From Alistipes sp. (lineage in GTDB: Bacteria; Bacteroidota; Bacteroidia; Bacteroidales; Rikenellaceae): a DNA stretch of 44,288 bases. Position numbers and translations under genes: made by a program. The notes under the pieces are model-generated. The model did not search any database. It was not told where the DNA came from and was given only the letters and a program-made list of their open reading frames with translations. The stretch's first letter is position 1, and every line of letters starts with the position of its first letter. This document shows positions 168 through 34,391 of this stretch, in pieces. The stretch lies in the NCBI GenBank assembly GCA_017465605.1, contig JAFTVW010000017.1, forward strand, positions 1 to 44,288. The letters run 5' to 3'.

Positions 168-299
168 TACTATCACCGCAGGTTGGTTGATGTAAAAATG
201 AGGAATGACGTGTGTGTTTTATAAAAATACTCTATCCAACTCGATGTTAGATAGAGTATTAACTCAATTTTGAATCTTGAATTTTGAATTTTGAATTCC
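168..299 (-). repeat. Dispersed 3'-end repeat, radC copy
   Basis: Read on the minus strand directly after the radC stop: tandem AATTCAAAATTC units (about 265-299), a 15-bp hairpin (226-260), then a block containing GTCATTC, CATTTTTACATCAAC and GATAGTATA. The same order recurs after the folP core (27637-27753), and the first two parts recur after dnaK (34342-34391). It looks like a non-coding mobile or REP-like element that supplies terminators. No transposase is nearby. Confidence 0.7.
226..260 (-). terminator. Terminator hairpin of radC
   Basis: AATACTCTATCCAAC pairs with GTTAGATAGAGTATT (one G-U type mismatch) around a TCGAT loop. On the minus strand it is followed by TTTTTAT. It is part of the repeat at 168-299, and its loop and upper stem match the dnaK hairpin at 34342-34372. 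Confidence 0.75.
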
Positions 300-300
300 A

Positions 301-954
301 CTACAACAATCCATTACGGCGGAACGAATATTCGCCCTCGGCCGAGATAATCAGATGGTCGAGCAAGCGGATATCAAACAGAGCCGCCGCATCGGCCACT
401 TTGCGCGTAAGAGCCTTATCGGCTGCGCTCGGCTCAGCCGCCCCCGAAGGGTGGTTATGCACCATAATAATTTGAGTGGAGAGCAGCTCCAACGCACGTT
501 TCACAATCAAACGATGGTCAACCACCGTAGCCTGCACTCCGCCCTGACTTACCCTCTGACGCTCGATTATACGATTCGACGATGTGAGATACAACACCCA
601 GCACTCCTCGTGCAACATTCCATCGAAAACAGGTCGCATCACTCGCACCACATCTTCGTCGGTTGAGATTGAATCCATTTCGCCCGTTGACGAGGCCACT
701 ACCCTACGTCCATACTCCAATGCAGCGTGCAACCTCTCGGCACGACGCAGACCAATCCCCTCGACCATACGCAGGCGCGACAAAGGCATACGCGACAATG
801 CCGCCAATGAGCCATACTCCCCCAGAATACGCTCTGCGACCTGCACCACGTCACGCGAATCCGAAGCCGACTCCAACAGCAGGGTCAGCAACTCCACATC
901 GTCCAACGATGCTGCACCTCGCGACGAGAGTTTATCGTGAATATTCTTTGTCAT
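301..954 (-). CDS. radC: RadC family JAB/MPN-domain protein
   Basis: 217 residues, normal for RadC. Residues 1-85 contain a helix-hairpin-helix-like segment (MVEGIGLRRAERL). Residues 100-217 are the JAB/MPN metalloprotease-like domain: Glu in HEECWV (about 116-117), the metal-binding H166-N-H168-P-S-G motif, and an Asp about ten residues later. Despite the historical name, a role in DNA repair is unproven; the family is often associated with mobile DNA and recombination. The ATG at 954 lies 127 nt after the rnc stop, so co-transcription with rnc is possible but uncertain. The stop codon abuts a dispersed repeat that provides the terminator. Confidence 0.93.
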   Translation of the reverse strand: MTKNIHDKLSSRGAASLDDVELLTLLLESASDSRDVVQVAERILGEYGSLAALSRMPLSRLRMVEGIGLRRAERLHAALEYGRRVVASSTGEMDSISTDEDVVRVMRPVFDGMLHEECWVLYLTSSNRIIERQRVSQGGVQATVVDHRLIVKRALELLSTQIIMVHNHPSGAAEPSAADKALTRKVADAAALFDIRLLDHLIISAEGEYSFRRNGLL

Positions 955-1081
955 AATTATCTGCTTGTATGCCTACTTATCGCACGTTTACTGTTGTTTG
1001 TCTGCCGCTGCAAGTTTACCTCCACACGTCTGCCGCTGCACATTTTCCGCTACGCTTTTGCCTACCGCGCGTTTGCTGCTG
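955..1081. repeat. Short imperfect repeats between rnc and radC
   Basis: This 127-bp gap holds TCTGCCGCTGCA twice (1001-1012 and 1029-1040, period 28) plus two related flanking blocks with CGCACGTTTACTGTTG and CGCGCGTTTGCTGCTG. There is no convincing promoter or gene. It may have arisen by local duplication next to the repetitive 3' end of rnc. Confidence 0.4.
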
Positions 1082-2686
1082 TTATTCAGCATTTTGTTCG
1101 GTCTTTTGTTCTGCCTTCTGATCGGCTTTCTGATCAGCTTTCTTGGTGCGTCGTCTTACGCTCCTTTTTGCCTTTGGAGGTGTTGTTGCTACTATCTCCT
1201 CTTTGGCAACAACATATCCCGCTAATTGATTATCCGACACCTCCACCGACTGCTTCTCGGCTATCTCGGCTATGGGGGCAATTGTGGTTGCGAGTGCGAT
1301 TGGTGGCTCAGTTGTAGTTGCTGTTGTAGTTGCTGCTGCGGGCTCAGTTGCGACCTTCGGCTTTGCCGATTTAGCTCTGCTTGATGCACGACGACGAGGC
1401 TTTTTAGCCACGCTCTCTGTTTGGGCATCAACTTCATCAATAGTCTTCTCAACTGTGGAAATCTCCTCCACCGATTCAACCTTTAACTCTGCCTCCTGCT
1501 TTGCCTTTGGCTCTGCCTCCTGCTTGGCCTTTGGCTTGGTTTTCGACTTTGGTTTAGCCTTTGGCTTGGTTTCAGATTTAGGCTCTGACGTGGTTTCTGC
1601 CTTCGGCTCCGACTTAGGCTCGGCTTTCGGCTTCGGCTCGGCTTTCGGTTCGGCCTTTGGTTTTGGCTTTTGCTCTGCCGCAACCTCACGCTTCGAGTCA
1701 ACCTTTGGCTCTATCTTTTTCTTCTCACTCTGCTCACTCACAACACTCCCCGCGGGCTCTATACCCTTTGCTCTCTCCGCTCTCTCCGCTCTCCCTGCGC
1801 TCCTCACACTCTCCACGCTCTGCGCTTCCTGTGGCTCGTTAGGCTCACTCGCGGCTTTGTATTGTCGCATCGAATGGGCACGCGACTTGGCATCAAGCAA
1901 ATCCAGCTTATCGAGCAACTTGGTGCAATCCTCGTCGCTAAAACCCTGCGATACGGAGTAAGCAGCACGTTGCTCCGCCTCCTTCTTCGACTCGCCTGCG
2001 CCATATCCCATCTCGATACCGTCAATCAGCACCTTGCTATAAAAGAATGGGTGTGTTGACGAGTATGTTTTATCGTTCTCCGTATCGAAATAAATCGTAT
2101 GGTGATTCTTCTGACACCACTCAATCAATCGGCTCTTGAAATCAGTCTCAGCCTGAGTGAGTTGGTCAACCTTGATGTAGTCAACAAAAATCTTGTTTAT
2201 AAGCAGTCTGTTGACAAAATCGTAGCCTTGATCGAGGTAAATTGCACCCATCATAGCCTCGAAAGCATCACCGTAGATGTGTTTCTGCGAGACGTTATTT
2301 GAGGAGTGGGTAATCACATAGTCGGACAATCCGATGCGTTTTGCCACATCGTTGAGCATCTGACGTGAAACCATTTTTGAACGCAATTTGGTCAAGAATC
2401 CCTCGTTTTTGTCGGGAAACTCGATGAAAAGATAATCCGACGACACGCTCTCTAAAACCGCATCACCCAAAAATTCAAGTCGCTCATTATTAATATGTTG
2501 ACCATCAGCCAACACAATAGATGCCGACTTATGGATAAGTGCCAATTTATATAGCTCGATGTTATTGGGAATAAACCCAAACATATCATCGACAGCCGCA
2601 TAAAATCGCTTGTCCTTGCCGAAATTTCGGCGAATGGGACGAAGGATAAAATCTATCAAAACAGTGGTTTTATATGTTAATAACAA
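1082..2686 (-). CDS. rnc: Ribonuclease III with a long low-complexity C-terminal tail
   Basis: Cuts double-stranded RNA in rRNA and mRNA processing. The first 275 residues are an ordinary RNase III: signature ERLEFLGDAV (about 69-78), second metal-site segment GDAFEAMMGAIYLD (139-152), and a dsRNA-binding domain (about 180-245, ending GESKKEAEQRAA). Residues 276-534 are a Lys/Pro/Glu/Ala tail with many KPKAEPK, EPKSEPK and KQEAE units, then Ala/Thr-rich and Lys/Arg-rich segments. Most bacterial RNase III proteins are about 220-310 residues, so the tail is exceptional. No ATG precedes the domain. Both possible starts are TTG, at 2686 and 2659; the later one fits the length of Bacteroidales homologues as I recall them. 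It follows fabF by 70 bp, in the common acpP-fabF-rnc order. Confidence 0.92.
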   Translation of the reverse strand: MLLTYKTTVLIDFILRPIRRNFGKDKRFYAAVDDMFGFIPNNIELYKLALIHKSASIVLADGQHINNERLEFLGDAVLESVSSDYLFIEFPDKNEGFLTKLRSKMVSRQMLNDVAKRIGLSDYVITHSSNNVSQKHIYGDAFEAMMGAIYLDQGYDFVNRLLINKIFVDYIKVDQLTQAETDFKSRLIEWCQKNHHTIYFDTENDKTYSSTHPFFYSKVLIDGIEMGYGAGESKKEAEQRAAYSVSQGFSDEDCTKLLDKLDLLDAKSRAHSMRQYKAASEPNEPQEAQSVESVRSAGRAERAERAKGIEPAGSVVSEQSEKKKIEPKVDSKREVAAEQKPKPKAEPKAEPKPKAEPKSEPKAETTSEPKSETKPKAKPKSKTKPKAKQEAEPKAKQEAELKVESVEEISTVEKTIDEVDAQTESVAKKPRRRASSRAKSAKPKVATEPAAATTTATTTEPPIALATTIAPIAEIAEKQSVEVSDNQLAGYVVAKEEIVATTPPKAKRSVRRRTKKADQKADQKAEQKTEQNAE

Positions 2687-2687
2687 T

Positions 2688-2713
2688 GGCTGTCACACTC
2701 TTGTCCGACAGCC
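2688..2713 (-). other. Hairpin between fabF and rnc
   Basis: GGCTGTC and GACAGCC form a perfect 7-bp stem with a 12-nt loop immediately before the presumed rnc start. There is no U-tract, so it is more likely an RNA-processing or attenuation structure (possibly a target of RNase III itself) than a terminator. That role is inference. Confidence 0.35.
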
Positions 2714-2756
2714 TAAAAGATAAGATATATCCCACTCACTCGCGATGCCTTAGCAC

Positions 2757-4004
2757 CTAAAACTTGCGGAATATGATGGTTGAATTATGACCTCCAAATC
2801 CAAATGTATTACTCAATGCCACACGCACCTCGCGACGCTGGGCCTCTCCCAACGTAAGGTTTAGGCGTGGATCGATCTCCTCGTCGAGATTCTCAACATT
2901 GATGGTTGGGGGGATAATGCCTCGCGTGATAGCCATAATGCAAGCCAAAGCCTCGATGGCCGCCGTACCTCCCAACAAGTGGCCGGTCATAGATTTGGTG
3001 GAAGAGATATTGATTTGGTATGAATGCTCGCCAAACAAAGAGGTAATAGCCTTTATTTCAGCAACATCACCCAACGAAGTAGAGGTACCGTGAGCGTTGA
3101 TGTAGTCGATATCCTCAATCGACAACTCTGCATCGCGAATCGCCTCACGCATAGAAATCATAGCTCCCTTGCCCTCTGGGTGTGGAGCAGTCATATGATA
3201 TGCGTCAGCCGACATTCCGCTTCCTGCAACCTCACAATATATTTTTGCACCTCGCGCCAATGCGTGCTCCAACTCCTCGAACACGAGTGCGCCACCGCCC
3301 TCGCCAATGACAAAACCATCGCGATCCTTATCAAACGGACGCGACGCGTGGGCTGCATCATCGTTGCGTGTTGAAAGGGCCTGCATACCGCAGAAACTAC
3401 CAACACCCGGGTCGTTAATCGAAGCCTCCGAGCCACCCGTAACAATCACATCGGCCTTGCCCCAACGAATCAGGTTCAAAGCATCAATCATTGCGTGGTT
3501 CGACGATGCACACGCCGAGACGGTGCAATAGTTCGGCCCCATAAACCCATATTTGATTGAGATGAATCCAGCCGCCAAGTCGGAAACCATACGGGGTACA
3601 AAAAATGGGCTAAATCGAGGTGTAAAATTACCCTCGATATAGCCCTTGCTCTCTTCGTAGAACGTAGTTGTTCCACCTGTGCCTGAACCCCACACAACAC
3701 CCACTCTCTCCAAGTCGATATTGCTCTCGACCAACGCCGCATCGCGAACAGCCTCATCGGCTGAAATCATCGCAAACTGCGCAAAAAGGTCGTACTTTCG
3801 CACCTCCTTACGGTCGAAATACTGAGTCCAGTCGTAATCCTTAACCTCGCAAGCTATCCTTGAACGGAATTTTGTGGCATCGAAACGAGTAATCGGAGCA
3901 GCGGCACTAACACCTGCTTCAAGATTTGAAAAATACTCCTCAACAGAGTGACCCAAAGGGTTGATTGTACCAATTCCTGTAACAACGACTCTTCTGCCCG
4001 CCAT
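2757..4004 (-). CDS. fabF: 3-oxoacyl-[acyl-carrier-protein] synthase II
   Basis: Condensing enzyme of fatty-acid elongation; it joins malonyl-ACP to acyl-ACP. Counting from MAGRRVVV, the thiolase-fold triad is C165 (SACAS), H305 (NAHGTST) and H342 (MTGHLLGG), the normal KAS II arrangement in a protein of 415 residues. An upstream GTG at 4010 is in frame, but the ATG at 4004 gives the usual N-terminus, so I use it. The gene follows acpP by 48 bp and precedes rnc, forming the acpP-fabF-rnc operon found in many bacteria. It probably uses the promoter upstream of acpP. Confidence 0.97.
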   Translation of the reverse strand: MAGRRVVVTGIGTINPLGHSVEEYFSNLEAGVSAAAPITRFDATKFRSRIACEVKDYDWTQYFDRKEVRKYDLFAQFAMISADEAVRDAALVESNIDLERVGVVWGSGTGGTTTFYEESKGYIEGNFTPRFSPFFVPRMVSDLAAGFISIKYGFMGPNYCTVSACASSNHAMIDALNLIRWGKADVIVTGGSEASINDPGVGSFCGMQALSTRNDDAAHASRPFDKDRDGFVIGEGGGALVFEELEHALARGAKIYCEVAGSGMSADAYHMTAPHPEGKGAMISMREAIRDAELSIEDIDYINAHGTSTSLGDVAEIKAITSLFGEHSYQINISSTKSMTGHLLGGTAAIEALACIMAITRGIIPPTINVENLDEEIDPRLNLTLGEAQRREVRVALSNTFGFGGHNSTIIFRKF

Positions 4005-4052
4005 AATCACCTAACTTAGATAGCCCGAAGAATTAGAATATTTGATATGAAA

Positions 4053-4289
4053 TTATTTCTTGTGAGCCTCAACGTATGCTACTGCATCGCCAACGGTTGC
4101 AATCTTCTCAGCGTCCTCATCGGGAATCTGAATGTCGAATGCCTTCTCAAACTCCATAATCAACTCTACTGTGTCGAGTGAATCTGCGCCCAAATGTGCT
4201 GTAAAGCTTGCCTCGGGTACTACCTCAGACTCCTTAACGCCCAACTTGTCAACGATAATCTCAACAACTTTTGCCTGAATCTCTGACAT
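4053..4289 (-). CDS. acpP: Acyl carrier protein
   Basis: 78-residue acidic four-helix protein that carries growing acyl chains on a phosphopantetheine arm. The attachment Ser is S37 in GADSLDTVE. It is the first gene of the acpP-fabF-rnc operon. A promoter-like TACTTTTG lies about 65 nt upstream of the ATG. The preceding 5' region is A/T-rich, and the divergent pepE gene starts 164 bp away. Confidence 0.98.
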
Positions 4290-4353
4290 AATTTTAACTT
4301 TTTTAGTTTAACAATTTATTTTTGATTGGTTTAATCTTTCAACATAATCTGCG

Positions 4354-4361
4354 CAAAAGTA
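4354..4361 (-). promoter_or_regulatory. Candidate -7 box for acpP
   Basis: TACTTTTG on the minus strand fits the Bacteroidetes -7 consensus TAnnTTTG. No clear TTG lies at the -33 position. It sits in the acpP/pepE divergent gap. Confidence 0.45.
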
Positions 4362-4453
4362 ACACTTTTTTTATTAATTTTGGCATTAGAAAGCAATTAT
4401 TTTACTGCCATTTTTTTGGTCAATATGTACAAACACCTAAATATCAACGGATT

Positions 4454-5155
4454 ATGAACTTATTACTGATTTCAAACTCTACCAACGCAGGTGAAGAATA
4501 CTTGCAATACCCTATCCAGCAGATTGGAAAGTTCCTCGAAGGCGTTAGCGAAGTGGTATTTATTCCCTACGCAGCCGTCACTTTCTCATACGCCGCATAC
4601 GAGGCAAAGGTGCAAAACAGATTCAACGAAATAGGCGTAAAAGTGCGCTCGATTCACCGTGCTGCAAATCCTCGTCATATGATTCGCAACGCTCAGGCAA
4701 TATGTGTCGGAGGAGGAAACACCTTCGCATTGGCAAAGAAGATGCAGGAGCAGGGTCTTATGCAGGCAATCCGCAAGAAGATAGCCGAAGGAACTCCCTA
4801 TGTAGGTTGGTCGGCAGGTAGCAACGTATGCTGTCCTACAATCTGCACCACCAACGATATGCCCATCGTGCAGCCCGAATCATTCAAGGCTATCGGTGCT
4901 GTCAAGTTCCAAATCAATCCCCACTATCTCGATGCCAACCCCGAAGGCCACGCAGGCGAGACCCGCGAGCAGCGAATTTTGGAGTACATCGAGGCCAACC
5001 CACGCCGCTGGGTGGTAGGACTTCGTGAGGGTTGTATGCTCCACGTCGAGGGTGAAAAGATGGAGCTTATCGGCTCGCGCCCGATGCGAATCTTCAAGAA
5101 GGGTGTCGAGACCTACGAGGTGAAGGCTGGTGACGACTTGGGATTCTTGATGTAA
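4454..5155 (+). CDS. pepE: Dipeptidase E (alpha-aspartyl dipeptidase, family S51)
   Basis: Cytosolic serine peptidase that cleaves N-terminal Asp-X dipeptides. 233 residues from the ATG at 4454; upstream in-frame sequence is A/T-rich with no family resemblance. The catalytic residues fall at the numbers described for the Salmonella enzyme: S120 in GWSAGSN, H157 in NPHYLD and E192 in LREG. The conserved CVGGGNTF segment is also present. It is transcribed divergently from acpP and followed by its own hairpin, so it is probably monocistronic. Confidence 0.95.
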   Translation: MNLLLISNSTNAGEEYLQYPIQQIGKFLEGVSEVVFIPYAAVTFSYAAYEAKVQNRFNEIGVKVRSIHRAANPRHMIRNAQAICVGGGNTFALAKKMQEQGLMQAIRKKIAEGTPYVGWSAGSNVCCPTICTTNDMPIVQPESFKAIGAVKFQINPHYLDANPEGHAGETREQRILEYIEANPRRWVVGLREGCMLHVEGEKMELIGSRPMRIFKKGVETYEVKAGDDLGFLM

Positions 5156-5196
5156 AACATCGTCAAAACAAAACCCAAACAGATTTATAAGCATAT

Positions 5197-5229
5197 TGGA
5201 GGGTGCAACAAAAACAACGCCACCCTCCA
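5197..5229 (+). terminator. Hairpin after pepE
   Basis: TGGAGGGTG and CACCCTCCA form a perfect 9-bp stem with a 15-nt loop, 41 nt after the pepE stop. The U-tract is poor (ATTTGC), so termination may be partial. Confidence 0.5.
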
Positions 5230-5260
5230 TTTGCAATTTCCCACCATAAACCTCCCTCAG

Positions 5261-5626
5261 ATGCAAACCAAATCTCAAATAGGCAAGCAAGGCGAGGAGA
5301 TAGCCGTTGCGTATCTGCGCCGCAATGGTTTTCTCATTGCCGACACCAATTGGCGAAATGGCCGCTACGAGATTGATATTGTGGCTCAAAAGCACGGTAT
5401 GACCCACTTTGTCGAGGTTAAAACTCGCAGTGCCAGCTCTCTCACTTCGCCCGAACAAGCTCTATCAAAGGCTAAAACCGATGCTATGCGCCGAGCCGCC
5501 AACGCATACCTCGCCCAGCATAGAATCGTGGGAGAATTTGAGATGGATTTGGTTGCAATTGACCTCTTTCCCGACGGGTCGAGCGATGTTCGTTTCATAA
5601 GAGATGTAGCCGAGAGTCATTGGTGA
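5261..5626 (+). CDS. YraN/UPF0102 family endonuclease-fold protein
   Basis: 121 residues from the ATG at 5261; an upstream TTG at 5231 would add ten residues unlike the family and overlap the terminator. Family landmarks are GKQGEEIAVAYLRRNGF at the N-terminus, NWRNGRYEIDIVA and FVEVKTR, which together give the E-D-ExK pattern of restriction-endonuclease-like folds. The usual GEID is YEID here. The biological role is not firmly known. The stop lies 58 bp before the waaA start, and a promoter for waaA lies between them. Confidence 0.85.
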   Translation: MQTKSQIGKQGEEIAVAYLRRNGFLIADTNWRNGRYEIDIVAQKHGMTHFVEVKTRSASSLTSPEQALSKAKTDAMRRAANAYLAQHRIVGEFEMDLVAIDLFPDGSSDVRFIRDVAESHW

Positions 5627-5627
5627 T

Positions 5628-5658
5628 TTGGAGAGTAAAAGAAAAAAGAGTAACTTTG
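5628..5658 (+). promoter_or_regulatory. Promoter of waaA
   Basis: -33 TTTG (5627-5630) and -7 TAACTTTG (5651-5658) are separated by 20 nt, a near-ideal Bacteroidetes promoter. Transcription should start near 5665. That rules out the TTG at 5628 as the start and supports ATG 5685. Confidence 0.65.
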
Positions 5659-5684
5659 TAATCCCAAACACAGAATACCAAAAT

Positions 5685-6920: not shown

Positions 6921-7236
6921 TTAAATCACACCATAAAATACAAGAAAATCATATTGCCTATGATTAAATAACAGTAGAAAAAATAGACATATAAATAAAA
7001 GGCGTTAGCTTATATCCGTGATTCTGAAACTTCGACACTTTCACTAATCACTCATCGGAATAAAGTTTGACGTCCACGCTGTGCGTTTACAGCGTGGGCT
7101 TTATTCCATATTTGAGTGATAGGTAGTCGAAGACCTCAGAATCAAATATTAGCGAATTTAGTCCGCGCTTTTTGTTTTGTCTGTAATTTGGGCTATTAAG
7201 GATTGTATCAATCATTAACACAAAAAAACATAAATT
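6921..7236 (+). promoter_or_regulatory. Long intergenic leader before the surface-protein locus
   Basis: 316 bp between waaA and the 41-codon ORF. The first 100 bp are A/T-rich and featureless. The centre is the nested hairpin at 7020-7143. After it comes CCGCGCTTTTTGTTTTG, then AATTTGGG and A/T-rich sequence up to the ATG. No clear TAnnTTTG promoter is present, so I cannot say where transcription begins. Confidence 0.5.
7020..7143 (+). ncRNA. Candidate structured RNA (nested hairpin, 41 perfect pairs)
   Basis: Five perfect helices share one centre: GATTCTGA/TCAGAATC (7020-7027, 7136-7143), CTTCGAC/GTCGAAG (7030-7036, 7126-7132), ATCACTCA/TGAGTGAT (7047-7054, 7113-7120), GGAATAAAG/CTTTATTCC (7057-7065, 7099-7107) and CCACGCTGT/ACAGCGTGG (7074-7082, 7089-7097). 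The loop is GCGTTT. Asymmetric internal loops (10/5, 2/5 and 8/1 nt) separate the helices, as in a functional RNA. It could be a cis leader of the downstream genes or an independent sRNA on either strand; a short 6S-like RNA is possible but unproven. Confidence 0.55.
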
Positions 7237-7362: not shown

Positions 7363-7381
7363 ACAAAACAGCGTTATGATT

Positions 7382-9082: not shown

Positions 9083-9123
9083 TGAGGATTTCGTGAACGA
9101 GCAAGATGACGAAAGAGCCTTGC
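9083..9123. repeat. Partial copy of the palindromic element's right half
   Basis: TGAGGATTTCG, GCAAGA and ACGAAAGAGCCTTGC match the order of the right half of 9142-9251 (TGAGGATTTTG, GCAAGA, AGAAAGAGCCTTGC). It appears to be a truncated second insertion. Confidence 0.55.
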
Positions 9124-9141: not shown

Positions 9142-9251
9142 CATATAGCAAGAGCTATTTTTAGGCCCTCGAAGCCCGAAAAACCGCAGTTTACTTAACG
9201 TAAATGAGGATTTTGAGGGCAAGAGAAACGAAGAAAGAGCCTTGCTATATG
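9142..9251. repeat. 110-bp palindromic element after the desulfidase gene
   Basis: CATATAGCAAGAGCT at the left faces AGAGCCTTGCTATATG at the right. Inside, GGCCCTC faces GAGGGC, AAAACCGCAGTTTAC faces GTAAATGAGGATTTT, and the centre is TTTAC-TTAAC-GTAAA. It ends 6 bp before the 3' end of the minus-strand gene and so could act as its terminator. There is no transposase, and the structure fits a MITE- or REP-like unit. Confidence 0.55.
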
Positions 9252-26820: not shown

Positions 26821-27579
26821 GTGGGAAAAGATAAACTAAAACGATTTGCCGAGAATCTCACATTCAGCTGTATGGTACAGCCCGAATTTGATGAGATTTT
26901 TCACAAAGACCACCCGCTGAAAGGGCGTTGGCACAAGGAGTTCTTCCACAACGACAACCCCATCATTTTGGAGTTGGGTTGCGGTAAGGGTGAATATACC
27001 ATAGCTCTTGCCGAGCGTAACCCCAACGCCAACTATATTGGTGTGGATATCAAAGGTGCGCGAATGTGGCGTGGCGCAAAGACTGCCACTGAGCAGGGAA
27101 TGACCAATGTGGCGTTCCTGCGTACGCGAATTGAGTTTATCAACTCATTCTTCGCCGAGGGCGAGGTGGCCGAGATTTGGATTACCTTCCCCGACCCACA
27201 GCTCAAAACACGTCGTGCGAAGAAGCGTCTCACATCGCCAATTTTTTTGGAGTATTACGCTCAATTCCTCGCAGCCGATGGGTGGATTAATCTGAAAACC
27301 GATTCGCAACACCTCTACGGCTACACCAACGAGGTTGTGCGCCACTTCTCTTTGCCTTGTGAGGCATCAAACAACGACATCTACGGCACAGGCTATGCCG
27401 ATGCTGAATTGTCGGTAAAGACCGCCTACGAGACCAAATTCTTGCAGCGAGGCCTGCCCATCACCTACACACGTTTCTCGCTGGCTGGCGGCAAGGAGTT
27501 TCCAATGTTTGATTGGGAGGAGGACGAAAAGTTGGAGAAAGACAACGAGGAGGCTCGCATCGGAATCAGCAAATGCTAA
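26821..27579 (+). CDS. trmB: tRNA (guanine-N7-)-methyltransferase
   Basis: 252 residues starting at GTG 26821, 4 bp after gldH. It methylates G46 of tRNA using SAM. SAM-binding motif LELGCGKGEYTIALAE (about 50-65), then IGVDIKGARMWRGA, the catalytic/tRNA-binding ITFPDPQLKTRRAKKRL and the C-terminal TAYETKFLQRGLPITY are all normal. It closes the ricT-gldH-trmB cluster and is followed by a perfect 14-bp terminator hairpin shared with the convergent folP. Confidence 0.95.
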   Translation: MGKDKLKRFAENLTFSCMVQPEFDEIFHKDHPLKGRWHKEFFHNDNPIILELGCGKGEYTIALAERNPNANYIGVDIKGARMWRGAKTATEQGMTNVAFLRTRIEFINSFFAEGEVAEIWITFPDPQLKTRRAKKRLTSPIFLEYYAQFLAADGWINLKTDSQHLYGYTNEVVRHFSLPCEASNNDIYGTGYADAELSVKTAYETKFLQRGLPITYTRFSLAGGKEFPMFDWEEDEKLEKDNEEARIGISKC

Positions 27580-27600
27580 TTCAAAACACAAAATAAACTT

Positions 27601-27633
27601 AAACTCTGATTAATATAATTAATCAGAGTTTTA
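27601..27633. terminator. Bidirectional terminator between trmB and folP
   Basis: AAACTCTGATTAAT and ATTAATCAGAGTTT form a perfect 14-bp stem with an ATA loop, T-rich on both sides. Confidence 0.85.
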
Positions 27634-27636
27634 TTA

Positions 27637-27753
27637 TATATTATCGCCTGCCGAAAGTTGATGTAAAATGTTGAATGACATATATATCCATATAAATAAG
27701 CATTGGATAACAAACTGTTACCCAACACCTTATCCAATTTTGAATTTTGAATT
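27637..27753 (-). repeat. Dispersed 3'-end repeat, folP copy (read through by folP)
   Basis: On the minus strand: AATTCAAAATTCAAAATT, an imperfect hairpin (27696-27712 with 27716-27733), then ATGTCATTCAACATTTT, ACATCAAC and GCGATAATATA. The order and much of the sequence match 168-299. Here the gene's frame stays open through the repeat, and its stop TAA falls in the final GATAAT block. Confidence 0.7.
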
Positions 27754-28591
27754 GCTTTATAAGCTCAACAGCCTCTTTCACATCGTGCACACGCAGGATT
27801 GAAGCACCCTGACAGAGAGCCTGCCAATTCAGCACAGTTGTACCCTGCAAGGTGGCAGAATCCGAAGGTGACACACCCAATAGATTATATATCATCGATT
27901 TGCGCGATAATCCCGCCAAGACAGGATAACCCAAATCGCACACTTTGTCAAGATTGAGCAATAACTCATAGTTCTGACGCAAATCTTTTGCGAAGCCAAA
28001 TCCAGGGTCCAAGATTATTTTATGCACTCCGCGCGATTGCAAAAATTCTGCACGCTGGCGCAAATACGCCACCACTTCCGAAGTCACATCACTCTCGTAA
28101 TCAATGTTTTGTTGCATTGTTTGGGGTGTGCCGCGCATATGCATAGCAACATACGGCACATCATACTCTGCCACAACATCTAACATCTTCTCGTCTATCT
28201 CACCCGCCGAAATATCGTTAATGATTATCGGGCCATACTCCTGCAAAGCTCGTCGGGCAACCTCCGAGCGGAATGTATCGATAGAGATAGCAACATCGGG
28301 CAATACCTCTCGAATCGCTTTAAGCCCCAAGTTCACGCGCTGCCACTCCTGCTCCAAGCTAATCTCCTTTGCACCGGGGCGTGACGAATAACCACCTACA
28401 TCGAGAATCGTAGCACCCTCAGCCACAGCCTGCACGGCCCGCTCGGCCACAGCCCGCTCCGACATAGTGCGGCTCTGAGCATAGAAAGAGTCATCGGTGA
28501 CATTCACGATAGCCATCACCTGCGGCTCCACAAGATTCAAACCATTAAAGTTGAGATTCACGGCAATAAATTTTATGGAGCTGCTCCACAT
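27641..28591 (-). CDS. folP: Dihydropteroate synthase with repeat-encoded C-terminal tail
   Basis: Condenses p-aminobenzoate with dihydropterin pyrophosphate in folate synthesis; the target of sulfonamides. The TIM-barrel motifs are present: NVTDDSF (the usual Pro is Asp), DVGGYSSRPGA, ISIDTF, NDISAG, MHMRGTPQTMQ, LDPGFGFAKD, GLSRKSM and RVHDV. The enzyme should end near VKEAVELIK. The next about 37 residues (QFKIQNWIRCW... to FGRR) are encoded by a dispersed intergenic repeat and match no DHPS part. The start is either ATG 28591 or GTG 28561; the GTG gives a more typical N-terminus. It overlaps the 3' end of coaE by 17-47 bp. In many relatives folP adjoins cdaA, which here lies about 15 kb away. 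Confidence 0.93.
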   Translation of the reverse strand: MWSSSIKFIAVNLNFNGLNLVEPQVMAIVNVTDDSFYAQSRTMSERAVAERAVQAVAEGATILDVGGYSSRPGAKEISLEQEWQRVNLGLKAIREVLPDVAISIDTFRSEVARRALQEYGPIIINDISAGEIDEKMLDVVAEYDVPYVAMHMRGTPQTMQQNIDYESDVTSEVVAYLRQRAEFLQSRGVHKIILDPGFGFAKDLRQNYELLLNLDKVCDLGYPVLAGLSRKSMIYNLLGVSPSDSATLQGTTVLNWQALCQGASILRVHDVKEAVELIKQFKIQNWIRCWVTVCYPMLIYMDIYVIQHFTSTFGRR

Positions 28592-29135
28592 CGCTCTCCA
28601 AATACTCCATTATTAGATTTACTATCGTGCGGGCAGCTCGGGTGTGCAACTCCTCATCACTCATTTGATTGGCTATACGAGCCTCAACGGCAGCCCTATC
28701 GGCCCCGTCACGGCTGATTGTACGCTTTATGCGCTCCTCGATTGGAGCCATCACCGCAAGCGTTGTATCGACCTCATTCTCGAAGCCCGCCTCAAACAAT
28801 ATCGCGCTCTCCAACACTACATATGCGGCCTTTTGCATATCGGCCCAAGCTCTGAAATCGGCCCTCACCGCAGGGTGAACAATCGCATTGAGTTTTGCAA
28901 GAGCCTCCTTATCGCCAAAAACCCGCTCGGCCAAATAGGCACGATTCAGCCCCTGCTCTCCGTAGCACTCCTCGCCAAAAGCCTCACACAAAGATTTACG
29001 GAGCGACTCACTATTTGTCATCAACTCCTTTGCTCGTGCATCAGAATCATAAACGGGCACGCCATACTCAGCCAGCAGACGGCACACCGTACTCTTACCA
29101 CTTCCGATACCTCCTGTAACTCCAACCTTATACAT
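28545..29135 (-). CDS. coaE: Dephospho-CoA kinase
   Basis: 196 residues from ATG 29135; in-frame sequence upstream is A/T-rich and unlike the family. It phosphorylates the ribose 3'-OH in the last step of CoA synthesis. The P-loop is GGIGSGKST (8-16), followed by VYDSDARAKELM, HPAVRADFRAW and ESAILFEAGFENEVDTTLAV, all typical. The 3' end overlaps folP, so the two are translationally coupled. It follows the YbbR-like gene in the same direction. Confidence 0.95.
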   Translation of the reverse strand: MYKVGVTGGIGSGKSTVCRLLAEYGVPVYDSDARAKELMTNSESLRKSLCEAFGEECYGEQGLNRAYLAERVFGDKEALAKLNAIVHPAVRADFRAWADMQKAAYVVLESAILFEAGFENEVDTTLAVMAPIEERIKRTISRDGADRAAVEARIANQMSDEELHTRAARTIVNLIMEYLESDVEQLHKIYCRESQL

Positions 29136-29207
29136 ATATATATTTATATAATGAATTGCATTTATAAAGATATGCGCACCACGATTGATGCGCATAATTG
29201 AACAAGT

Positions 29208-29765
29208 CTATTTGCTATCTTGCGATGCCTTTTGACCATCAGCCGACTCCTTATCCGCTCCCGTAGTCGCAGATTTCTTGGTTCGGAACAGGCCACCTAC
29301 TTTACTCTTAACATTTTGTGTAGTATCGGCCTCATCTTGCGGCTTAGGGATTGGCAATGGCGGGATATCACCCAACGACACAATCTTTATATCGCTAAAA
29401 CGCACCGAAATTGCATTTTGCACCGATTGAGGGTCGAGAATATAGCACACCTGCGGCTCACCCGTCTCTTCATCAACAACACTACCCTTGCGATACTTCA
29501 AATCTGCAAGACGCAACTTTATCTCCTTGCGAGTATAGTTTCTATAACCCAAAAGATTTGTACCAACGCCCTCCACAACCGAAGGGATACGCAATGTCTG
29601 CCCATCGATGTTTACGAGTATATTATACTCGGTGGTATAGGTATTACCCAATTTGAGGATATACCAAAACACAAACGATGCACAAAACAACAATATGAAG
29701 GCTGGCGAAATATAACTCTTCAACCAACGCTTGACCACCTGCAACTTAAAAAGTAATGTTCCCAT
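29208..29765 (-). CDS. YbbR-like membrane-anchored protein
   Basis: 185 residues from ATG 29765 (a longer frame up to 29819 would run into the promoter and the secDF terminator). One N-terminal membrane segment (YISPAFILLFCASFVFWYILKL) is followed by an exported part with one YbbR-like beta domain (TTEYNILVNIDGQTLRIPSVVEGVGTNLLGY) and a Ser/Lys/Asp-rich tail. YbbR proteins are often linked to diadenylate cyclase as regulators (CdaR); cdaA is in this window but distant. The family call is moderate because the domain repeats are weak. The neighbour coaE is a common partner in Bacteroidetes. Confidence 0.65.
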   Translation of the reverse strand: MGTLLFKLQVVKRWLKSYISPAFILLFCASFVFWYILKLGNTYTTEYNILVNIDGQTLRIPSVVEGVGTNLLGYRNYTRKEIKLRLADLKYRKGSVVDEETGEPQVCYILDPQSVQNAISVRFSDIKIVSLGDIPPLPIPKPQDEADTTQNVKSKVGGLFRTKKSATTGADKESADGQKASQDSK

Positions 29766-29787
29766 AACTATTACACAGAAAACTACA

Positions 29788-29814
29788 CAAAGGTATAAAA
29801 AAATAGGTTGCAAA
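29788..29814 (-). promoter_or_regulatory. Promoter of the ybbR-coaE-folP run
   Basis: Minus strand: TTTG (29811-29814), 15 nt, then -7 TACCTTTG (29788-29795). The spacing is short. The upstream element lies inside the secDF terminator hairpin, so the two signals overlap. Confidence 0.5.
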
Positions 29815-29834
29815 CCCACAGTTGCAACCTATTT
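29801..29834 (-). terminator. Terminator of secDF
   Basis: AAATAGGTTGCAA and TTGCAACCTATTT form a perfect 13-bp stem with an 8-nt loop and a run of T residues on the minus strand. It lies 20 nt after the secDF stop. Confidence 0.88.
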
Positions 29835-29853
29835 TTATTATCTTCCTCCGATA

Positions 29854-32844
29854 CTACTTAACCTTCTTATCGGTACGACGCAAAATGTCATAAGCGATAG
29901 GAGTTGCAATGAACACTGATGAGTATGTACCAATAATGATACCAATCAACAATGCGAATACAAATCCACGAAGATTCTCACCACCCAAGATGAAGATTGC
30001 AAGCAATGTTACAAGAGTGGTCAACGATGTATTCATCGTACGAGACAATGTAGAACAGATAGCCTGATTGATATTGAGCTTCATATCGCGCTTAGGATAC
30101 AATGTGATGTACTCACGGATACGGTCGAAGATAACTACTGTATCGTTGATTGAGTAACCGATGATTGTAAGGATAGCGGCGATAAATGCTTGGTTAACCT
30201 CCAAGTTGAAAGGCATAACGTGGTAGAAGATTGAGAAGATACCAATCACCAAGAATGAGTTGTGAGCCAATGCCAATGTAGCACCTGTTGCCCACTCCCA
30301 ACGCTTGAATCGGAATGTGATGTAAAGACCGATTGCGATGAGCGAGAACAATACTGCGTAGAATGCGCTGTAAATCAAATCCTTTGCAATAGCAGGACCA
30401 ATCTTCTCAGATGAAATGATACCGTTGACATCCTCCTGAGTTGATGTAAAGCCTTCCAATGTGATAGGATATGTATAGAAGCCCTTCAATGCCTCATAAA
30501 GCAATGCGTCAACCTCAGCAGTTACCTCCTCAGAAGTATCGTCATACTTATACTGAGTTACGATACGCATCTGATTCTCGGCACCATACTGCTTAACCTC
30601 GATTGAAGACTTAGTTGCATCGTCGCTTACCAAAGCCTTATCCAAAGCCTCACGAACAGCCTCAGCCGATACGTTCTGGTCGAAACGTACTACATAAGTA
30701 CGACCACCTGTAAAGTCAACACCTGTATTCAAGCCCAAAGTGAAGAGTGAGATGATTGACAATACTACGAATGAGCCAGAGATGATGTAAGAAACCTTAC
30801 GCTTTGCAATGAAATCGAATGATACGTTTGACAACCAATTCTCAGACCAAGAGCGAGAGAATGAGATTGTACCCCACTTCTCCTCTACCCACTCAATCAA
30901 CATACGAGTAATGAAGATTGCGCAGAAGAGTGAAGTAACGATACCGATAACGAGTGTAGTTGCAAAACCCTGAACTGGACCATTACCGAATACGAACAAC
31001 ACGATACCTGTGATAATAGTTGTGAGCTGACCGTCGATAATTGCTGAATATGCATTTGAGAAACCGTCCTTGATAGCGAGAGTCAAGCCCTTACCAGCAC
31101 GAAGCTCCTCCTTGATACGCTCGTAGATGATAACGTTAGCATCTACCGCCATACCCATAGTAAGCACGATACCGGCGATACCAGGCAATGTAAGAACTGC
31201 ACCGAATGACACCAATACACCCATCAACAAGAATACGTTAAGGATAAGTGCCAAGTCAGCCAACCAACCTGCGGTCTTGTAGAACAAGCCCATATAGAGC
31301 AACACGAGGATAAACGCCAAAACGAATGAGAACATACCTGCGTTGATAGACTCCTGACCGAGTGATGGACCTACCACTGTATCCTGAATAATACGCGCGG
31401 GAGCAGGAACCTTACCTGACTTCAAAACGTTAGCCAAGTCCTGAGCCTCCTGGATTGTAAATTTACCAGTGATACGAGATGTACCACCCTCGATTTTGTT
31501 CTGTACGTTAGGAGCTGAATATACATAACCGTCCAAAACGATTGCGATAGGCTTACCTACGTTCTGACCTGTAAGCTGTGCCCACTGTGAAGCACCGTCA
31601 GAGTTCATCGAAAGGCTAACCTCAGCAGTAGCACCCTGCTCTGCATACATCTCCTGAGCAGTTGAAACCGAAGAGCCGTCCATAGCTGGCTTGCCATCAA
31701 CCGAGCGAAGTGCATACAAAGCATAACGACCACCAAAGTAATCCTCACCCTTTACACCCCACTTCAAGCTAAGGTCTGCGGGGAAGAGGTTCTGAACCTC
31801 AGGGCGTGCCAAATATGCGTTGATTGCAGGAATGTCAGCAGCAGTAGCAGCACCTACGATGCAACCTCCTGAATAAGAAGGATCCAAAAGTGCGAACAAA
31901 GGATTCTCCTCACGAGAGAAACGTGACTGAGACTCAACATCTGTCTGCTCGGCTGCATTCTGAGCAACCTCAGCAGCGAGGTCTGCTGTCTTCTTCTCTG
32001 CCTCATCAGTTGTTGCAGTTGCCTCTGCGCTCTGCTCAGCTGCGGGAGCTGAATCAGCCTCTTTGATAAGACGCTCTGCCTCAACCAAAATAGGAAGAAT
32101 CTCCTGAGTATTGTAAGTTACCCAAAACTCCAACGATGCAGAACCCTGCAAAAGCTTACGAACACGCTCAGGCTCCTTAACACCTGGCAACTCAACCAAG
32201 ATACGGTTTGAGTTAGGCAAACGCTGGATATTGGGCTGAGTTACGCCGAAGTGGTCGATACGGCTACGCAAGATGTTGAAAGATGCAGCAATAGCAGCAT
32301 TAGTCTCATCGCGCAAAACCTTCAAAACCTCATCGTCAGAAGAGTTAGGATTGATATCCTTACGGTCGGGGCTTACGAAGATAGTAGCCAACGAACCTCC
32401 ATTCGATGTCTCGGCATAAGCCTTAGCGAACTCACCGATGTAGTCGTTTGTACCAGCCTTCATAGCCTCGTTAGCACGATTGATAGCCTCTACGAAAGCG
32501 GGGTCATTTTGGCTTTCACCAGCGAGTGACTTCACCAAATCCTGAACCTCGATTTCGAGCATTACGTTCATACCACCTTTAAGGTCAAGACCCAAGTTAA
32601 CTTCCTTCTCCTTGCACTGCTTGTATGTGAAATCCACCATACCGAGGAAGCTGTAAACGGGCTGATTCTGAATTGAATCCAAGTAGTAAGCCTCACGAGA
32701 AGCCTGCTCAGACTCATCAAATGCGGCAGCGTACTCAACAGCTGCCTTCTCTACCTTTCTCGTTACAAACGAGAACGAGAGCTGATAAATACACGCAATC
32801 ACCAAAAGGATTGCAAGTACTTTAATTGCGCCTTTACTTTGCAT
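29854..32844 (-). CDS. secDF: Protein translocase subunit SecDF (fused)
   Basis: 996 residues from ATG 32844 (MQSKGAIKVLA), with 12 expected membrane segments. It uses the proton gradient to help pull preproteins through SecYEG. The SecD half has LGLDLKGGMNVMLEI, a large periplasmic domain, VVGPSLGQESINAG and GMAVDANVIIYERIKEEL. The SecF half has GVDFTGGRTYVVRF and GYSINDTVVIFDRIRE. An Ala/Glu/Thr-rich insertion of about 50 residues (AEQSAEATATTDEAEKK region) sits within the SecD periplasmic domain. The start of 15 more residues upstream is possible but not family-like. Confidence 0.97.
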   Translation of the reverse strand: MQSKGAIKVLAILLVIACIYQLSFSFVTRKVEKAAVEYAAAFDESEQASREAYYLDSIQNQPVYSFLGMVDFTYKQCKEKEVNLGLDLKGGMNVMLEIEVQDLVKSLAGESQNDPAFVEAINRANEAMKAGTNDYIGEFAKAYAETSNGGSLATIFVSPDRKDINPNSSDDEVLKVLRDETNAAIAASFNILRSRIDHFGVTQPNIQRLPNSNRILVELPGVKEPERVRKLLQGSASLEFWVTYNTQEILPILVEAERLIKEADSAPAAEQSAEATATTDEAEKKTADLAAEVAQNAAEQTDVESQSRFSREENPLFALLDPSYSGGCIVGAATAADIPAINAYLARPEVQNLFPADLSLKWGVKGEDYFGGRYALYALRSVDGKPAMDGSSVSTAQEMYAEQGATAEVSLSMNSDGASQWAQLTGQNVGKPIAIVLDGYVYSAPNVQNKIEGGTSRITGKFTIQEAQDLANVLKSGKVPAPARIIQDTVVGPSLGQESINAGMFSFVLAFILVLLYMGLFYKTAGWLADLALILNVFLLMGVLVSFGAVLTLPGIAGIVLTMGMAVDANVIIYERIKEELRAGKGLTLAIKDGFSNAYSAIIDGQLTTIITGIVLFVFGNGPVQGFATTLVIGIVTSLFCAIFITRMLIEWVEEKWGTISFSRSWSENWLSNVSFDFIAKRKVSYIISGSFVVLSIISLFTLGLNTGVDFTGGRTYVVRFDQNVSAEAVREALDKALVSDDATKSSIEVKQYGAENQMRIVTQYKYDDTSEEVTAEVDALLYEALKGFYTYPITLEGFTSTQEDVNGIISSEKIGPAIAKDLIYSAFYAVLFSLIAIGLYITFRFKRWEWATGATLALAHNSFLVIGIFSIFYHVMPFNLEVNQAFIAAILTIIGYSINDTVVIFDRIREYITLYPKRDMKLNINQAICSTLSRTMNTSLTTLVTLLAIFILGGENLRGFVFALLIGIIIGTYSSVFIATPIAYDILRRTDKKVK

Positions 32845-32921
32845 TGTAGTTAAAAATTTTTGTTTGTATTTATTTTTTATGTTATTCACATATCATCGGA
32901 CACAGTCCGAATTTTAGTTCG

Positions 32922-32929
32922 CAAAGATA
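32922..32929 (-). promoter_or_regulatory. Candidate -7 box of secDF
   Basis: TATCTTTG on the minus strand, 78 nt before the ATG and just downstream of the terminator of the serine hydrolase gene. The -33 element is unclear. Confidence 0.45.
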
Positions 32930-32940
32930 ATAAAAAAAAA

Positions 32941-32974
32941 TCTGAAAAACTATCCTTTTGGACCGATTTTCAGA
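32941..32974 (-). terminator. Terminator of the serine hydrolase gene
   Basis: TCTGAAAA and TTTTCAGA form an 8-bp stem with an 18-nt loop; a run of nine T residues follows on the minus strand. Confidence 0.65.
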
Positions 32975-33044
32975 CTTTTCCATTAATATTAGGTGTTTAT
33001 ACTGCTTCACGCAGTAAAAAACAGGCATCAGACAGCTCTGCCAG

Positions 33045-34127
33045 CTACTTCAACACGGGCAAAATATGCTCCCAAATGAAGTTTATCTCGCGCTGCATAT
33101 TACTTAAATTGGCCGTTACGGCTATCACTGCATTCTGGTCGGGCATAATGATAATGTATTGACCTGCCGCACCATCGGCACGCACCGCATTGTGGCGACA
33201 ACGCCACATCTGATAGCAATATCCCTGCAACCAATCACTATCCTCCGGCTTGACCTTTACATTTTCGGGACGAACACCCGCAGGACGTGATGCGATGTGA
33301 GCCTTTGTAGCCTCCATAATCCACTTTGCAGGCACGATTCGCTTACCGTTCCATTTGCCTTTCTGCAAAATCATCTGACCCAACTTTGCCAAATCCTCGG
33401 TTTTCAGATAGAGCCCCCAACCTCCGACATTAATACCCAGACTGCACTCCTCCCAGCGTGCGTCCTCAATTCCCAAAGGCTCGAACAATCGGGGACGGAG
33501 ATAATCTACCACTTTCTCACCTGTGGTTTTTTGCACGATAGCCGATAACATATAGGTTGCCAAGCTGTTATAGACGAAGAATGTACCAGGCTCGTGCAAC
33601 ACGGGCTCGGCATAAAAACCCTTAATCCAATCGGCATCAGCACCCATTTTATGACGGTCGGGGGCATAGTCGTGACCCGTTGACATCGATAGCAGATGAC
33701 GCACCTCCATCTTACGCAAATTCTCGCTCACCTCCGCAGGCAACTTATCGGGAAAGAACGATACGACTTTATCCGACAATGAGAATCGCCCCTCGGCCAA
33801 TGCAATACCGACAGCCGTAGCGGTAAATGTTTTACTCACCGAATTCAGAACGTGTGGCACATCGGCGGCTGCTCCATTCAGCCAACGCTCAGCAACGACT
33901 TTGCCATTCTGCACAACCATAATGCTATGTATCTCTTGCTTAGCCTTTTCGGTAGCTGCCAAAAAGTCATCTACGGCTTTATTGATTGGGACTGAATACT
34001 CTGCACGGGGTAACGATTTATCGGCAGCGGCATCACTCGCAGATTTGTTTTTTTGTTGCGCCATAAGAGGGAGAGAGAGCATCGCAAACAACAATAAAAT
34101 AAGGCTTCGTTTAATTATAGTGGTCAT
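33045..34127 (-). CDS. Exported serine hydrolase of the class C beta-lactamase fold
   Basis: 360 residues from ATG 34127, with a signal peptide ending near LPLMAQ. The catalytic S96-x-x-K99 (SVSK) and Tyr motif YNS match the DD-peptidase/AmpC-fold esterase group, and the third motif is DGAAGQY where beta-lactamases have KTG. GHDYAPDR and GGWGLYLKTEDLAKLGQ are usual in the beta-lactamase-related esterases (PF00144). It is more likely an esterase or peptidase than a true beta-lactamase. A good promoter is present, and a terminator follows, so it is monocistronic. Confidence 0.88.
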   Translation of the reverse strand: MTTIIKRSLILLLFAMLSLPLMAQQKNKSASDAAADKSLPRAEYSVPINKAVDDFLAATEKAKQEIHSIMVVQNGKVVAERWLNGAAADVPHVLNSVSKTFTATAVGIALAEGRFSLSDKVVSFFPDKLPAEVSENLRKMEVRHLLSMSTGHDYAPDRHKMGADADWIKGFYAEPVLHEPGTFFVYNSLATYMLSAIVQKTTGEKVVDYLRPRLFEPLGIEDARWEECSLGINVGGWGLYLKTEDLAKLGQMILQKGKWNGKRIVPAKWIMEATKAHIASRPAGVRPENVKVKPEDSDWLQGYCYQMWRCRHNAVRADGAAGQYIIIMPDQNAVIAVTANLSNMQREINFIWEHILPVLK

Positions 34128-34155
34128 ATCGAAATTGATTTTGGTTAACATCACA

Positions 34156-34186
34156 CAAAGTTAACAATATCGCTGTAAAAAGTCAA
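34156..34186 (-). promoter_or_regulatory. Promoter of the serine hydrolase gene
   Basis: Minus strand: -33 TTG (34184-34186), 20 nt, -7 TAACTTTG (34156-34163). This places the transcript start near 34150 and supports ATG 34127. Confidence 0.65.
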
Positions 34187-34341
34187 GCGCATAAACAAAA
34201 AGTTCTATACTCGTTTTCAGATATTTTCCTCCTGACACAAATTTGTCTTTTGGATACATTGGAGAATAAATTAAAGAATTAATCCCCCGTTTGGTATTGG
34301 GCGAGTAATACGAAAATGCAATGCAGTATATACACAAAAAA

Positions 34342-34372
34342 AATCCTACCTAACTCAATGTTAGATAGGATT
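34342..34372 (-). terminator. Terminator hairpin of dnaK
   Basis: AATCCTACCTAAC and GTTAGATAGGATT pair over 13 positions (one G-U type mismatch) around TCAAT, followed by eight T residues on the minus strand. Loop and upper stem match the radC hairpin. Confidence 0.85.
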
Positions 34373-34391
34373 TTAATCAATTTTGAATTCC
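34342..34391 (-). repeat. Dispersed 3'-end repeat, shortened dnaK copy
   Basis: GGAATTCAAAATTGATT then the hairpin, in the same order as at radC but with one A/T-rich unit instead of several and without the distal GTCATTC/ACATCAAC block. The interval 34155-34341 holds no gene. Confidence 0.6.

Follow-up and report, generated by a model that had tools for sequence, protein, structure and literature searches.

A heptamer-and-hairpin repeat located beside the genes radC, folP and dnaK of an Alistipes sp. genome (GCA_017465605.1, designated G000; 2.3 Mb in 64 contigs) shares features with several described repeat systems. The DNA analyzed here, referred to as the window, is contig JAFTVW010000017.1 (C10) from base 1, with a length of 44,288 nt. 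Among the described systems, the cyanobacterial short tandemly repeated repetitive (STRR) sequences are dispersed heptamer arrays. The miniature inverted-repeat transposable elements (MITEs) of Porphyromonas gingivalis, including BrickBuilt, are small, mostly non-coding sequences with inverted ends, many copies and nested cargo, and the palindromes of the repetitive extragenic palindrome/REP-associated tyrosine transposase (REP/RAYT) type form another known repeat system.

In the intervening sequence (IVS) of the Coxiella 23S rRNA, the termini form a 28-bp stem, and tandem heptamers (GACAGAT) are present before its open reading frame (ORF) for an S23p protein (PMC4990558). The same source describes S23p as a homopentameric four-helix bundle with 'no known function'. 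S23p structures are represented by 2RLD and 2GSC, the latter being XCC0516 of Xanthomonas campestris, a species with GGGAATC arrays. S23p genes have also been reported in cas loci (18 genes; PMC3936711). Dispersed arrays of the heptamer TAACTGA have been described in Beggiatoaceae, cyanobacteria and Bacteroidetes (PMC4679880), and arrays of GGGAATC and GGGGA(C/T)T in Xanthomonas and Nostoc, respectively, with 70 and 75 convergent array pairs in two xanthomonads (PMC4692102). A link between S23p and heptamer arrays was absent from the titles and abstracts among the matches listed for the open-licence literature.

The repeats at radC, folP and dnaK are probably members or remnants of small elements that have inverted heptamer-array ends and are spread by S23p acting in trans. 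IVS elements and heptamer arrays were each already known, and the wider finding concerns the repeat as one end of S23p-type elements. An initial annotation, made from the window alone, had described the repeat as a dispersed, mobile, non-coding terminator at gene 3' ends. The repeat blocks were recovered at all three genes in the positions given there, all on the minus strand. The annotation had caught just one end per element, as adjoining arrays mostly point inward.

The organization of the arrays was studied in 79 ATTCAAA-type arrays contained in 65 merged segments of the Alistipes genome (194,861 bp), which were chosen around matches; 31 of these arrays are cut off by contig or stretch ends. 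Adjoining arrays no more than 800 bp apart were found as 12 inward, one outward and one same-direction pair. Outward sequence was readable for 74 arrays; the closest gene edge was a stop codon for 38 and a start codon for 32, whereas three had no neighboring edge and one lay inside a gene. Among the stop-adjacent arrays, 23 are no more than 10 nt away from the stop codon, and in six the element's own AA finishes the TAA codon (TAATTC). Because they mostly face inward and adjoin starts about as frequently as stops, the arrays are regarded as element ends and not as 3'-end signals. The view that the repeat is in essence a 3'-end terminator is not supported.

The cargo between the ends is a mosaic of alternative hairpins, a long GTCATTC...GGAATC hairpin and a CTCCCTC hairpin. 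One of the 12 inward pairs (L075) encloses a 124-aa ORF that matches PF05635 (6.5e-28) and TIGR02436 (8.2e-30), which is the only PF05635 match in the Alistipes genome and is bracketed by ATTCAAA arrays. Another pair, on contig C55 past a UvrD/PcrA-like gene (L084 787-1184; C55 8485-8884), holds an 89-aa ORF (MAKRKIEYYGDERKH...), and the others hold ORFs of no more than 78 aa or none. The description of the element as purely non-coding is thus contradicted by the S23p (four-helix-bundle) gene in the L075 pair, an association that recurs across phyla.

The heptamer array is the more general part of the family than the hairpin. The pattern ATTCAAAATTCAAAATT (up to two mismatches) gave 108 forward and 113 reverse matches in the genome, versus three and two for the reversed pattern; the places of about the first 100 matches were individually listed. 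A covariance model of the hairpin, reaching only five bases upstream of the stem, was built from 23 array-adjacent copies (24 aligned, of which one short and one duplicate row were dropped, and the dnaK copy added by hand). The genome search that the initial annotation had proposed found copies well beyond the original three. This search scored 150 candidates per genome (of 1306 in G000), so its counts are lower bounds. It yielded 63 rows in the Alistipes genome, 17 of which are the same palindrome on the opposite strand, leaving at least 46 distinct places by hand count and upholding the claim of a dispersed repeat family. An ATTCAAA-type unit stands immediately upstream at 41 of these 46 places (27 in the array set, dnaK, and 13 of the 18 remaining places); of the five hairpins without such a unit, one sits two bases from a contig end. 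In the other 28 genomes, with 150 candidates scored in each, the hairpin model found one to three weak matches in five (E 7.9e-5 or worse) and none in 23.

The stem is paired in 98.8% of 345 cells over the 23 copies. Eight of the 15 stem pairs have changed on both sides, and 33 doubly changed cells were counted versus 7.3 after shuffling, a number that drops sharply once the partner is slid. This covariation agrees with the earlier statement that the hairpin is maintained through compensatory change.

S23p genes were surveyed in 41 genomes, of which 26 have a PF05635 match at E 0.001 and 21 exceed the curated cut-off; no PF05635 match was found in 14 named control genomes. In the first set of 25 S23p loci (those above the cut-off among 30, the weak-match loci being left uncounted and the heptamers assigned by eye), period-7 arrays were present upstream in 17 and downstream in 16, versus 3 of 143 control windows, and two or three flanks per side showed period 8. 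Among a further set of 80 loci, 62/78 flanks on the upstream side and 62/80 on the downstream side had period 7 (at least 20 of 28), versus 10/421 control windows, and no other period exceeded two flanks on either side. This second set comprises the best 80 of 585 matches to an eight-sequence profile that favors one S23p subgroup. By record title, its members belong to Bacteroidota, Clostridia, Verrucomicrobia, Ignavibacteria, Fibrobacter, a gammaproteobacterial symbiont and others. Ten plasmid loci of Bacteroidota, Spirochaetota, Cyanobacteriota and Chloroflexota, picked from 25 records and taken without control windows, showed period 7 upstream in eight and downstream in all ten.

Arrays were present on both sides of the S23p gene at 66 of 103 loci (L116 and L117 left out). 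They are inverted in 56 (at least 6/7 consensus bases), direct in five, tied in one and neither in four, and randomly paired loci gave 11% inverted. Heptamer similarity climbs with S23p protein identity. Like heptamers (at least 6/7 bases) were found in 5/5 pairs above 80% identity, in 22% of 107 pairs at 65-80%, in 10% of 1608 pairs at 50-65% and in 5% of 425 pairs below 50%.

Several plasmid S23p genes lie in cas loci. Those of Nostoc TCL26-01 and Anabaena cylindrica (L328 and L329) are located between cas2 and cas1, and that of Pseudanabaena galeata (L333) immediately before cas1, in each case with period-7 arrays on both sides. The presence of S23p genes in cas loci may reflect insertion. 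On the Euhalothece plasmid pEu1 (L335, L336), a segment containing genes for an N-6 DNA methylase, a helicase and S23p is present twice, and one of the copies has its methylase annotated as a pair of shorter ORFs.

Four heptamers were counted throughout 29 genomes (G000 and 28 others), with overlapping matches and the S23p locus included; AGATGAA (G014), AATTAGT (G024), GGCTATT (G002) and others were left out of these counts. In all seven checkable genomes, namely G000 and six relatives, the heptamer found at the S23p locus is also abundant across the genome (24-146 matches). ATTCAAA occurs 126 times in G000 and 24 times in G023, there mostly in an ATTCAAA/ATTTAGA mixture as at its own S23p locus. 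ATTCACA has 57 matches in G017, and GAGAACT has 90 in G004 and none in the other 28 genomes. AAGTGAA has 146 matches in G006 (places not individually listed), 138 in G020 and 52 in G016, and G006 has a second S23p locus with a different heptamer. A reversed-pattern control is uninformative for AAGTGAA and CTGGTCA, as the reversed array is the same array. The counts also include ATTCAAA in G014 (113), G013 (100), G004 (28), G011 (19), G017 (10) and five more genomes (no more than six), ATTCACA in G011 (42), G006 (2) and G027 (1), and AAGTGAA in G024 (157), G011 (79) and G008 (1). In a Dolichospermum plasmid stretch, further arrays of the S23p heptamer bring the total to nine clusters within about 7 kb.

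Occupancy of individual sites differs between lineages. By eye, no array was seen past folP in 22 readable relatives (one of 24 rows, G009, was dropped for an unreadable flank). The 3' side of trmD (one of 23 rows dropped at a contig edge) carries an S23p element in G000, G017 and G006, with its own heptamer in each, and arrays without S23p in G011, G002 and G023 (by eye). This site is empty in G013 (GAAATTGAATTATAAT) versus filled in G000 (GAAATTCAAAATTC ... TTTTGAATTATAAT), with an AATT-like junction and no clear target duplication in this single pair (trmD 586/672 identical). In 20 stretches of G014 chosen around matches, eight inward, no outward and no same-direction pairs were found. Of 28 array-adjacent genes in G014, two have a counterpart among the 72 genes of the G000 set that is at least 80% identical and carries its array at the same edge; one more is the same gene with an array at the other edge, and other matches are weak (26-41%). 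The heptamer is alike in the two species and the cargo different. The family, its inverted ends, their match to the ends of the S23p gene, the covariation and the lineage-specific occupancy are all evident at the level of sequence.

Terminator-like hairpins are associated with the arrays, as the initial annotation had noted for gene 3' ends. A stem followed by a T-run, reading from gene to element, is present at 32/36 stop-adjacent versus 16/31 start-adjacent arrays (Fisher p=0.001), and the specific hairpin family at 17/36 versus 7/31 (p=0.044), that is, at 24 of 67 arrays overall. Over all inward windows the stem and T-run were found in 52/75, versus 16.7 after shuffling and 76/600 random windows. 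The radC, folP and dnaK hairpins fold far better than their shuffles (all z below -5). A simple terminator scan calls the dnaK and folP hairpins, each of which has a GC-containing stem-loop followed by a U-run. The hairpins are predicted to terminate transcription.

The dnaK terminator appears to have been replaced in the Alistipes genome, because the family hairpin stands there where relatives carry unrelated hairpins. The element is found past dnaK in none of 18 relatives (5/24 rows dropped for contig edges or partial sequence), and most of these have, by eye, an unrelated hairpin and T-run past the stop codon. In G007, G016 and G017, an array of a different heptamer type lies just past the dnaK hairpin (by eye).

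A mechanism can be proposed from these observations. One member in G000 carries the S23p (PF05635/TIGR02436) gene between ATTCAAA ends; other members, with hairpin-rich cargo and mostly no recognizable gene, are most likely non-autonomous derivatives mobilized by S23p in trans. Insertion would take place at gene edges, in many cases no more than about 10 nt from a stop codon, a preference that may stem from selection against insertion inside genes. Because the two end arrays are complementary to each other, an RNA transcript or a single strand of the element could fold back on itself. The most likely role of S23p is to bind its cognate heptamers, either in RNA or in single-stranded DNA, and to guide host enzymes; we infer that it recognizes the heptamers and promotes movement, possibly through an RNA or single-stranded DNA hairpin of the inverted ends together with host enzymes. 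At a gene 3' end, the array-adjacent hairpin would then serve as an intrinsic terminator, and at dnaK it would have replaced the ancestral one. S23p is presumably related to the Avd protein of diversity-generating retroelements. In a broader form, put forward tentatively, S23p (23S_rRNA_IVP) proteins would be the mobility factors of pan-bacterial elements with inverted heptamer ends, each specific for its heptamer; dispersed heptamers, 23S IVSs and S23p genes in cas operons would be their products, and the elements would supply terminators.

The arrays could instead be binding sites of a regulatory network, in which S23p or another protein, bound to heptamers in RNA or DNA, controls its own gene and others with no transposition. 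The location of arrays at both gene starts and gene stops and the tracking of the S23p protein by the heptamer agree with such a role, as does the translational role suggested for the TAACTGA arrays of Beggiatoaceae, for whose spread 'no mechanism is evident' (PMC4679880). This explanation is considered unlikely, since inward pairs around unrelated cargo, the in-frame run-on into FolP and TrmD and the small number of sites common between species all fit insertion better. It is likewise improbable that the elements resemble MITEs and owe their movement to an unrelated, unseen transposase recognizing the heptamer ends, with S23p as just one frequent passenger. The many arrays in G011 and G013, which lack a strong S23p match, and the absence of S23p from 11 of the 12 inward pairs in G000, including the one with the 89-aa ORF, can be explained in this way. 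S23p is, however, the only gene identifiable between inward pairs, and it is bracketed across many phyla by differing heptamers, whereas a passenger would not be expected to bring its own heptamer type. No parent transposase was seen, and no systematic search for one was made.

The explanation originally offered, selection of a terminator repeat at the 3' ends of genes, is now very improbable. Hairpins at most stop-adjacent arrays, the other terminators of relatives at dnaK and the stem covariation would be accounted for by it. It leaves unexplained that 32 of the 70 arrays with a neighboring gene edge are at starts, about half of which have a stem and T-run, and that the hairpin family is limited to a minority of the arrays examined; the covariation could also arise by correction between the arms of an inverted repeat. 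In its simple form it is ruled out by the arrays at gene starts. Strand slippage on AT-rich DNA, producing arrays with no element, can hardly be credited. Array lengths vary by whole units, as slippage would have it; period 7 stands out, however, the arrays form inverted pairs, and most genomes lack a heptamer that is abundant in another. Slippage alone is ruled out by the period and inversion tests. A known Rfam RNA is also ruled out, as no match above the family gathering cut-offs was obtained in the whole window.

Several observations weigh against spread of the elements by S23p. Neither movement nor a target-site duplication was seen, and S23p is not known to have catalytic residues. Twenty-four arrays have at least 800 bp of inward sequence without a partner, and the 89-aa ORF, which gave no match in a Pfam search, means that S23p is not the sole possible cargo gene. 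G011 has 19, 42 and 79 matches to three heptamers with no PF05635 match, and G013 has 100 with a weak one only, whereas in G014 and G024 the abundant heptamer differs from that of their own S23p locus. Arrays without a matching S23p in a draft genome imply that S23p is not needed there now or that another factor moves the arrays. Of four plasmid stretches, three had the S23p heptamer in arrays beside the S23p gene only. With regard to termination, 30 of the 75 inward windows also score on the opposite strand, and the simple scan did not call the radC hairpin in its stretch. Finally, 83% of the GGGAATC arrays of X. campestris pv. campestris (Xcc) share their context in Xac (PMC4692102), which argues against recent movement in those genomes.

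Decayed second ends were considered for the one-sided arrays and rejected, as the best inward partner scores resemble those of outward and reversed controls.

The elements with inverted heptamer ends resemble the 23S rRNA IVSs in the S23p ORF, the stem-forming terminal inverted repeats, the heptamers on the 5' side of the ORF, the sporadic distribution and the suspected mobility (PMC4990558). The Coxiella IVS, with its terminal stem and with tandem heptamers ahead of the S23p ORF, fits the class. Complementary termini able to form a stem are present at the 56 inverted S23p loci and in the two-ended folP element; an S23p ORF is found in one G000 element (L075) and is lacking in that at folP, while the radC copy is truncated and just one end is present at dnaK. 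Unlike the IVSs, the present elements lie at the edges of protein genes, by the dozen and mostly without an ORF, and the copies in the window are intergenic or at gene ends and not in a 23S rRNA helix. In the available text of PMC4990558, the heptamers are not linked to dispersed arrays.

Dispersed heptamer arrays are similar in being mostly intergenic, with one or few heptamers per genome and many copies. They differ in that no associated gene is named for them in PMC4679880 and PMC4692102, in the main texts of which 's23' and 'four helix' do not occur. MITEs share the smallness, the mostly non-coding content, the inverted ends, the copy number and the nested cargo. Terminal inverted repeats are present here as the inward pairs, alongside the one-sided arrays; unlike those of MITEs, these ends are arrays of variable unit number, and no target duplication was seen beside them. 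The likeness to REP/RAYT consists of GTCATT...AATC hairpins that occur as cargo in G000 and G014, where, unlike REP palindromes, they sit inside heptamer brackets in the examples seen.

Palindromes of the form GTCATTGCGAGG...GGCAATC, which we take to be REP-like, are enclosed by ATTCAAA ends in G014 (L341, L343 and L345). In several copies, the GTCATTC hairpin is an inverted pair within heptamer brackets and resembles a nested palindromic element. Its arms covary between copies by eye (TTTTTACAT/ATGTAAAAA, TTTCTTCAT/ATGAAGAAA and TTTTTGTAT/ATACAAAAA; window 140-209, L078 and L029). Several start-side arrays (L035, L045, L054, L063 and others) adjoin GCAAAG(A/T)TA by eye, the reverse complement of TAnnTTTGC, which is the Bacteroidota -7 box. 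TTTTGAA units at start-side arrays would put TTTG near -33.

These results suggest that S23p proteins, a widespread and unexplained bacterial family, are a marker of mobile elements of a little-known kind. If true, a single answer would be available for the purpose of S23p, for genome-specific tandem heptamers and for the origin of the intervening sequences of 23S rRNA, and S23p genes located in cas loci would be insertions. The dnaK case would mean that the terminator of a gene is replaceable by an inserted element. Should both the class and the mechanism hold, the elements would come nearer to a new kind of element.

Within the window, AATTCAAAATT (up to one mismatch) has eight matches versus 2.0 expected, and TTTTACATCAAC has two versus 0.01 expected. 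A Pfam search upheld the RadC, pterin-binding (FolP) and Hsp70 identities of the window proteins. No transposase was recognized on reading the window ORFs, five of which were run against Pfam, in agreement with the initial annotation. The features of the three copies are given in Table 1. The same ordered blocks, with a distal block in two copies, had been assigned to the three genes; dnaK has a single heptamer unit, with no array and no distal block. The radC copy is truncated by the contig end at base 1. The block assigned to the region after folP is present at the site; it lies not beyond the gene but within its reading frame, where it codes for the end of FolP. The Pfam domain of this protein stops at residue 269 of 316. 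Between folP and its convergent neighbor lies a complete element, of which the folP copy forms one end and which has a terminator-like hairpin toward either gene. This element extends to the stop codon (27577-27579) of a convergent putative methyltransferase gene (Methyltransf_4, trmB-like), the final two bases of whose TAA are contributed by the array at the second end.

Table 1. Features of the radC, folP and dnaK copies, by position in the window
Feature	Position	Strand
radC-side CTCCCTC hairpin, repeated cargo; element runs on toward contig end at base 1	80..100	+
radC distal block GTCATTC...ACATCAAC, a single long imperfect hairpin with arms CATTTTTACAT / ATGTAAAAATG; element cargo	140..209	-
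radC family hairpin CTATCTAAC-ATCGA-GTTGGATAG with T-rich tail; 15-bp stem, -18.9 kcal/mol	219..265	-
Heptamer array (ATTCAAA)n, four units, one element end, 3 nt past radC stop codon	266..297	-
folP element, second end: degenerate heptamer array AATTCAAAACACAAAATA	27578..27595	+
Palindromic terminator-like hairpin past Methyltransf_4 (trmB-like) gene, within folP element	27601..27631	+
Element-encoded C-terminal tail of FolP; not in FolP of 22 readable relatives	27641..27755	-
Degenerate distal block GTCATTC...ACATCAAC of folP copy	27657..27679	-
folP-side hairpin, -18.1 kcal/mol, terminator-like (27730-27698); stem sequence differs from radC and dnaK	27696..27735	-
folP-end heptamer array, translated in frame as FolP residues FKIQNW	27736..27753	-
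dnaK family hairpin with 8-T tail, stem-loop 34374-34340; relatives have unrelated hairpins there	34333..34379	-
One heptamer unit AATTCAAAATT(G) past dnaK stop codon	34379..34391	-

Other features were observed in the window. The RNase III gene (rnc, 1082-2686, minus strand) encodes a Lys-, Glu-, Pro- and Ala-rich extension of about 290 residues on the C-terminal side of the dsRNA-binding domain. Two 41-nt direct repeats (9083-9123 and 9205-9245), which are 76% identical, lie between two ORFs. Tandem repeats coding for Tyr and Asn (38003-38163) are located in the C-terminal region of a probable lipoprotein encoded by ORF 37888-39471 (minus strand).

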